NCBI GenBank assembly: GCA_030824495.1
Contig: JAVBXP010000021.1
Location: 82,012-146,011 of the forward strand
DNA length: 64,000 nucleotides
Direction of reading: 5' to 3'
Source of the DNA: a bacterium
GTDB taxonomy: Bacteria; Pseudomonadota; Alphaproteobacteria; Caulobacterales; Caulobacteraceae
Shown: piece by piece, positions 54,128 to 54,505 of the stretch
Layout: the number at the start of each line of letters is the position of its first letter
How positions within the stretch are numbered: the stretch's first letter is position 1
Made by a program: the position numbers and the translations under genes
The notes under the pieces: generated by a model
Told to the model about the DNA's origin: nothing
What the model saw: only the letters and a program-made list of their open reading frames with translations
Databases searched by the model: none

Positions 54128-54193
54128 ATCTGGACGATGTTTAGATAGGCTCACATCTAAACGATGTACAGATACATTTTACGATGTAAGCTA
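54128..54193. promoter_or_regulatory. Operator array A / promoter of micro-protein 1
   Basis: ATCTGGACGATGTTTAGAT (54128-54146), ATCTAAACGATGTACAGAT (54155-54173), degenerate third copy with core TTTACGATGTAA (54178-54189); minus-strand TGTACA-17-TATCTA. Confidence 0.75.
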
Positions 54194-54222
54194 TTCGAAA
54201 TTGCATGGGCCGTTGCGCGCAA

Positions 54223-54252
54223 CAAAAAGGGGACCCGACGGGGTCCCCTTTC
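54223..54252 (-). terminator. Rho-independent terminator downstream of micro-protein 2
   Basis: Minus strand aaaGGGGACCCcgtcGGGTCCCCtttttg. Confidence 0.9.
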
Positions 54253-54277
54253 GAAATCAAGCGTTACTGACGCGGGC

Positions 54278-54391
54278 TTAGCCGCCAACGCTCACCGTGG
54301 CCGCCGCCAGGCCGATGCTGAGCACCACCAGGGCGACAGGGACGAACCGGTCGAAAAGACGTTCGAAAGAGGTCAAACGAGCGAGAGACAT
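54278..54391 (-). CDS. Single-TM micro-protein 2 (37 aa), absent from ORF track
   Basis: MSLARLTSFERLFDRFVPVALVVLSIGLAAATVSVGG*; RBS ctggaaggtg; own promoter and terminator; aligns with micro-protein 1. Confidence 0.78.
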   Translation of the reverse strand: MSLARLTSFERLFDRFVPVALVVLSIGLAAATVSVGG

Positions 54392-54440
54392 TACACACAC
54401 CTTCCAGTTTGAAACCCTCGGGGGAGCGAGGGCGTTTGTT

Positions 54441-54505
54441 ATTTGAACGATGTTAAGATAACACCGATCTAAACGCCGTCAAGATGATCTTTACGGCGTC
54501 CAGAT
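54441..54505. promoter_or_regulatory. Operator array B / divergent promoter of micro-protein 2 and tetR
   Basis: ATTTGAACGATGTTAAGAT (54441-54459), ATCTAAACGCCGTCAAGAT (54467-54485), ATCTTTACGGCGTCCAGAT (54487-54505); minus-strand TTGACG-16-TATCTT. Confidence 0.82.

Follow-up and report, generated by a model that had tools for sequence, protein, structure and literature searches.

Probable operator arrays beside a tetR gene point to a small regulon of membrane microproteins in Caulobacteraceae

Which regulator acts at the two arrays of 19-bp palindromes that lie between positions 54128 and 54505 of the window (the whole 64-kb stretch of DNA that was analysed), and what does it control? We consider it probable that they serve as operators for the TetR encoded next to them, which would regulate its own gene and repress membrane microproteins until an inducer frees it from the DNA.

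The five good palindromes listed in an earlier note on this DNA were recovered with identical sequences on the forward strand, at 54128–54146 (A1), 54155–54173 (A2), 54441–54459 (B1), 54467–54485 (B2) and 54487–54505 (B3). The start-to-start spacing was as claimed, being 27 then 20 bp in array A and 26 then 20 bp in array B. The one degenerate copy (A3; core TTTTACGATGTAA) was also located, at 54175–54193 on the same strand and 20 bp past A2; it stands opposite B3 when the A and B modules are aligned and may be the remnant of a third site. On a symmetrised family matrix the five palindromes scored between 27.0 and 30.3 bits (A1, 29.7; A2, 30.3; B1, 30.2; B2, 28.8; B3, 27.0), against 15.3 bits for the next best site in the window, although the matrix, built from 165 distinct family sites with the orthologous sites in training, favours such sites by construction. 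With the same matrix, random sequence matched by a Markov model (4.15 Mb) yielded no site above 20 bits. Equal frequency of the motif at random genomic sites would have counted against an operator role; the only perfect matches to ATCTNNACGNNGTNNAGAT in the 4.15-Mb genome, four in number, are at the tetR locus. Matches with up to three mismatches numbered 28, compared with 4.8 ± 2.8 in shuffles. The genome-wide search was made by pattern searches, and the candidate targets below are among the matches listed; the genome may hold further ones. Most of the other one-mismatch sites examined lay inside genes and scored <15 bits, and these were rejected as operators.

The position of the palindromes relative to promoter elements is an argument for repression. 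The two promoters named in the earlier note, TGTACA-17-TATCTA (54170–54142, reverse strand) and TTGACG-16-TATCTT (54482–54455, reverse strand), can be read from the sequence, and in both arrays operator 1 lies on the –10 box and operator 2 on the –35 box. We assign them as the predicted promoters of microproteins A and B, respectively. The boxes of the B promoter recur in relatives, TTGACR-16/17-TATCTN being present at 64 of 78 loci. On the opposite strand, a predicted tetR promoter with a weak –10 box (TTTACG-17-TAGAGT, 54490–54518, forward strand) would yield a nearly leaderless transcript, and B3 likely covers its –35 box. The earlier reading was supported as regards ownership of the operators by TetR, promoter overlap, duplication and further regulon members, whilst the microproteins as the output of the promoters and the placement of B3 on the tetR promoter were missing from it.

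The 26/27-bp spacing of operators 1 and 2 is forced by the 16/17-bp spacers of the promoters, and is therefore no evidence for cooperativity. The usual 20-bp spacing of B2 and B3 could place adjacent dimers on a single helical face, but proves nothing. Where promoter boxes underlie the palindromes, otherwise free positions are fixed: TTGAC within GTCAAGAT of B2 and TTTAC within ATCTTTAC of B3. At B2 this reading is qualified by GTCA having served to recognise the site, so that the right half GTCAA is invariant in the 76 relatives with a recognised B2 partly by the rule itself. Overlap with promoter boxes would explain the asymmetry of single operator sites.

The adjacent gene (tetR, 54526–55155, forward strand) encodes a 209-residue protein with TetR_N and TetR_C_33 domains (Pfam, 55 and 53 bits). 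Its helix-turn-helix is recognised by PF00440 (55 bits, cut-off 24) and its C-terminal ligand domain by PF13305 (53.4 bits); the AlphaFold model (pLDDT 85) has the all-helical TetR fold, its best PDB matches are TetR-family structures, and predicted palindromic operators (B1–B3) are conserved 5′ of the gene. By domain and fold, then, the regulator is an ordinary member of the TetR family. It reached no named NCBIfam equivalog; identity as FabR, the unsaturated fatty acid repressor, was rejected at 52.7 bits against an equivalog cut-off of 151. TetR relatives in plasmid records were all below 60% identical. As to the flanking genes, 53192–53752 encodes a free-standing HNH-domain protein with weak similarity to the IscB/Cas9 HNH, and 55115–56008 encodes the tRNA glutamyl-Q(34) synthetase GluQRS.

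We gathered 78 named or metagenome-assembled loci from Caulobacteraceae and relatives with a profile of this TetR. The combination of tetR, divergent microprotein and operators was kept at 76 of them, with a B2-type operator in 76/78 and a nearby microprotein in 76/78. The helix-turn-helix was nearly invariant. The B1–B2 spacing was 26 bp at 58 of 68 loci, and that of B2–B3 was 20 bp at 41 of 66 and 19–21 bp at 63 of 66. An exact tandem-operator pattern was found in 29/36 genomes of the genus and in 0/24 of other Caulobacterales families, and the reversed pattern, used as a control, in 0/60; since the operator-bearing genomes are related, these counts are not independent. Every array listed had tetR within ~2 kb, apart from one that lies at a short contig's end (G017:C321). 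The operators are conserved beside the tetR orthologue and absent from families without it, which supports their assignment to this regulator.

Downstream of each array is a short open reading frame on the reverse strand. Microprotein A (53966–54073; 35 aa, MSALTNLGRFFDTSVAVVFVLISLSLAGATALVGV; E = 8.2e-12) lies 3′ of array A and microprotein B (54278–54391; 37 aa, MSLARLTSFERLFDRFVPVALVVLSIGLAAATVSVGG) lies 3′ of array B. In both, a purine-rich stretch precedes the start codon and the product has one hydrophobic segment (a single TM helix); neither matched a Pfam or NCBIfam family. The family consensus, MSxxxLxxFERxFDRxxxxxxLxLGLxxAGATAxVGA, contains one invariant Asp, and both the TM profile and the initiation context are conserved. 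In five orthologue groups pN/pS was 0.21–0.56, with a third-position excess in total, and these substitution patterns favour translation. The microprotein was restricted to Caulobacteraceae (28 genomes among the 249 of the order that we surveyed); it was not found in genus g12, and a close TetR was missing from four g12 genomes. All microprotein matches read in the 249-genome survey had upstream operators, save one weak match (L269). Multiple copies (two or three), likewise preceded by operators, occur in many Phenylobacterium. An unlinked copy in one genome (G121) lies deep in a 780-kb contig with a perfect-core operator upstream, and no tetR helix-turn-helix motif was found within the 6 kb read around it. 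The microproteins are probably absent from many annotations.

Two further features of the transcribed regions can be noted. A GC-rich hairpin followed by a T tract, 3′ of microprotein B (54226–54252, reverse strand), is a likely terminator by inspection of the sequence and was not returned by a terminator scan. The start context AAGGTGTGTGTCATGTC is common to many Phenylobacterium B microproteins (54392–54408 of the window and its counterparts in relatives), and is a possible translational control element.

Beyond the locus, the earlier note had predicted further regulon members, and we found support for one such gene and possibly for a second. An operator-like site of 24.1 bits (ATCTTAGCGTTGCTTAGTT, C30:148182) lies on the –10 box of a gene for a 112-residue protein with a signal-peptide-like start, which belongs to the CC_3452 family (NF047636, 63.5 bits, cut-off 40). 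A site of at least 20 bits was present in the promoter of the best CC_3452-family homologue in 47 of 48 genomes of the tetR-bearing genera, tetR itself being confirmed in most, not all, of the 48; in the sole exception (G017) the homologue is divergent. Throughout these genera the site scored 20–28 bits, whereas none of 14 loci from groups without a tetR orthologue exceeded 10 bits. We did not find tetR in G018, G008 or G298 (95, 73 and 89% complete, respectively) despite their CC_3452 operator. In Caulobacter crescentus, CC_3452 is a hypothetical gene that is iron- and Fur-responsive by 2.5-fold (PMC3751524).

The promoter of gshA (glutamate–cysteine ligase) contains an operator-like site of 22.3 bits (G000:C23:71120; L043:5121), and the corresponding site exceeded 15 bits in 13 of 20 genomes of the genus that were scored and in 0/9 from other families. 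The right half, GTAAAGAT, is conserved and the left half variable. Since that conserved half could itself serve as a –10 box, its conservation is no proof of TetR binding, and gshA would be the weaker candidate for regulon membership. Separately, a gene whose product is a lipoprotein with an MliC domain (lysozyme inhibitor) has a 19.1-bit operator-like site ahead of it (ATCTTAACAGTGCTTAACT; G000:C30:185799, L093).

We propose the following switch. Without inducer, TetR dimers would occupy B1 and B2 on the –10 and –35 boxes of microprotein B, B3 on the –35 box of tetR, and A1 and A2 on the promoter of microprotein A, and would keep RNA polymerase off each of the three promoters of the locus; we favour promoter occlusion because of the operator geometry, and autoregulation because B3 lies on the presumed tetR promoter. 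Binding of a small molecule to the TetR_C_33 domain would release TetR. The microprotein genes and tetR would then be expressed, as would, away from the locus, at least the CC_3452-family gene for a secreted protein and possibly gshA. Array A presumably arose by duplication of the B promoter–ORF module, as the earlier note had suggested: the operators, the leader TTCAAAC and the ORF all align between A and B, and in one relative (L178) each array holds three good sites, which fits an ancestral duplication that included all of them. The third site of array A may have decayed because there is no tetR promoter there. The microproteins are most likely inner-membrane accessory proteins made under envelope or redox challenge.

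The last assignment has to be weighed against a switch of the same design in which the microproteins are membrane-damaging peptides of the TisB/DinQ type, and release of TetR leads to growth arrest. They do resemble SOS-controlled membrane peptides in size, in their single TM helix, in being placed under tight operator control and in having paralogues. However, the microprotein keeps the same syntenic position throughout the family and is under purifying selection, whilst type I toxins are usually patchy in their spread, and we regard this alternative as unlikely. We infer an accessory inner-membrane protein rather than a toxin because of the long-term purifying selection, the synteny and the conserved charged N-terminus. 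DinQ is described as a single-TM peptide that is toxic and SOS-controlled (PMC3567139). A search of Rfam at the locus gave no family above threshold and one match, far below it. That the short ORFs are untranslated, with their transcripts acting as small RNAs, would suit the short, terminated transcription units, but is barely credible given the third-position excess, pN/pS below 1 in all five groups and conservation of the TM protein profile and initiation context.

The direction and the reach of control can also be read differently. Few TetR-family members are activators, and activation of one divergent promoter rather than repression of both would place this TetR among them; operators on the –10 and –35 boxes are in an occluding position, making this very improbable. 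A more serious, if still doubtful, possibility is that TetR acts at its own locus only, with the CC_3452 and gshA sites being operators of a paralogous TetR or look-alike promoter elements. TetR paralogues are plentiful in these genomes, and the end of the CC_3452 operator is fixed as AGTT, as opposed to AGAT, so a paralogue could own it; at gshA, the possible –10 box and the varying left half would fit a promoter element. Against this, the strength of the CC_3452 operator follows the presence of the tetR orthologue across genera. We favour a TetR switch that would reach at least the CC_3452-family gene. Taken further, one TetR sensor might restrain the ~35-residue microproteins (as direct inner-membrane effectors), the CC_3452-family secreted protein and glutathione synthesis in a family-wide stress regulon of Caulobacteraceae, a proposal that we make only tentatively.

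Autoregulated repressors of the tetR/tetA type resemble this system in the fold of the helix-turn-helix and ligand domains, in having palindromic operators where two promoters diverge, and in a repressor gene beside its target. Their target is a pump or an enzyme; here it would be a ~35-residue microprotein, several paralogues of which have their own operators. The best match in both sequence and fold, the TetR-like protein 3on2 of Rhodococcus sp. RHA1 (phmmer 1.9e-22; Foldseek 2e-7; ~30% identity), is a solved structure without an assigned function, from which nothing can be transferred. In Escherichia coli, ComR is a TetR-family repressor of the small envelope protein BhsA/ComC; the shared feature is TetR-family control of a small envelope protein, and BhsA differs in being larger and outer-membrane-associated. 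In the LexA-controlled TisB and DinQ systems, a small single-TM peptide is held off by a promoter-bound repressor, as proposed here, but repressor and signal differ, and those systems have RNA antitoxins, of which none is known here. No description of the module was found in the open-access literature searched, a scope outside which most subscription journals fall. The regulator is thus of a known kind, whilst its target set, membrane microproteins and paralogues with their own operators, is unusual and appears to form an undescribed small regulon. A sequence pattern thereby becomes a testable regulon in the family to which the model genus Caulobacter belongs.

The CC_3452-family promoters without this TetR carry other dyads. 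Those of g12 have a AAGTAATCGTTG.TCAGTC-like dyad and those of other families a CGCTGAA..TTCAGCG-like dyad (L338–L346 and L116–L121 cover both groups). This suggests that the regulator of the CC_3452-family gene has been exchanged where this TetR is missing; with operators kept at one position across the tetR-bearing genera and other dyads elsewhere, the promoter offers a natural case of regulator turnover.
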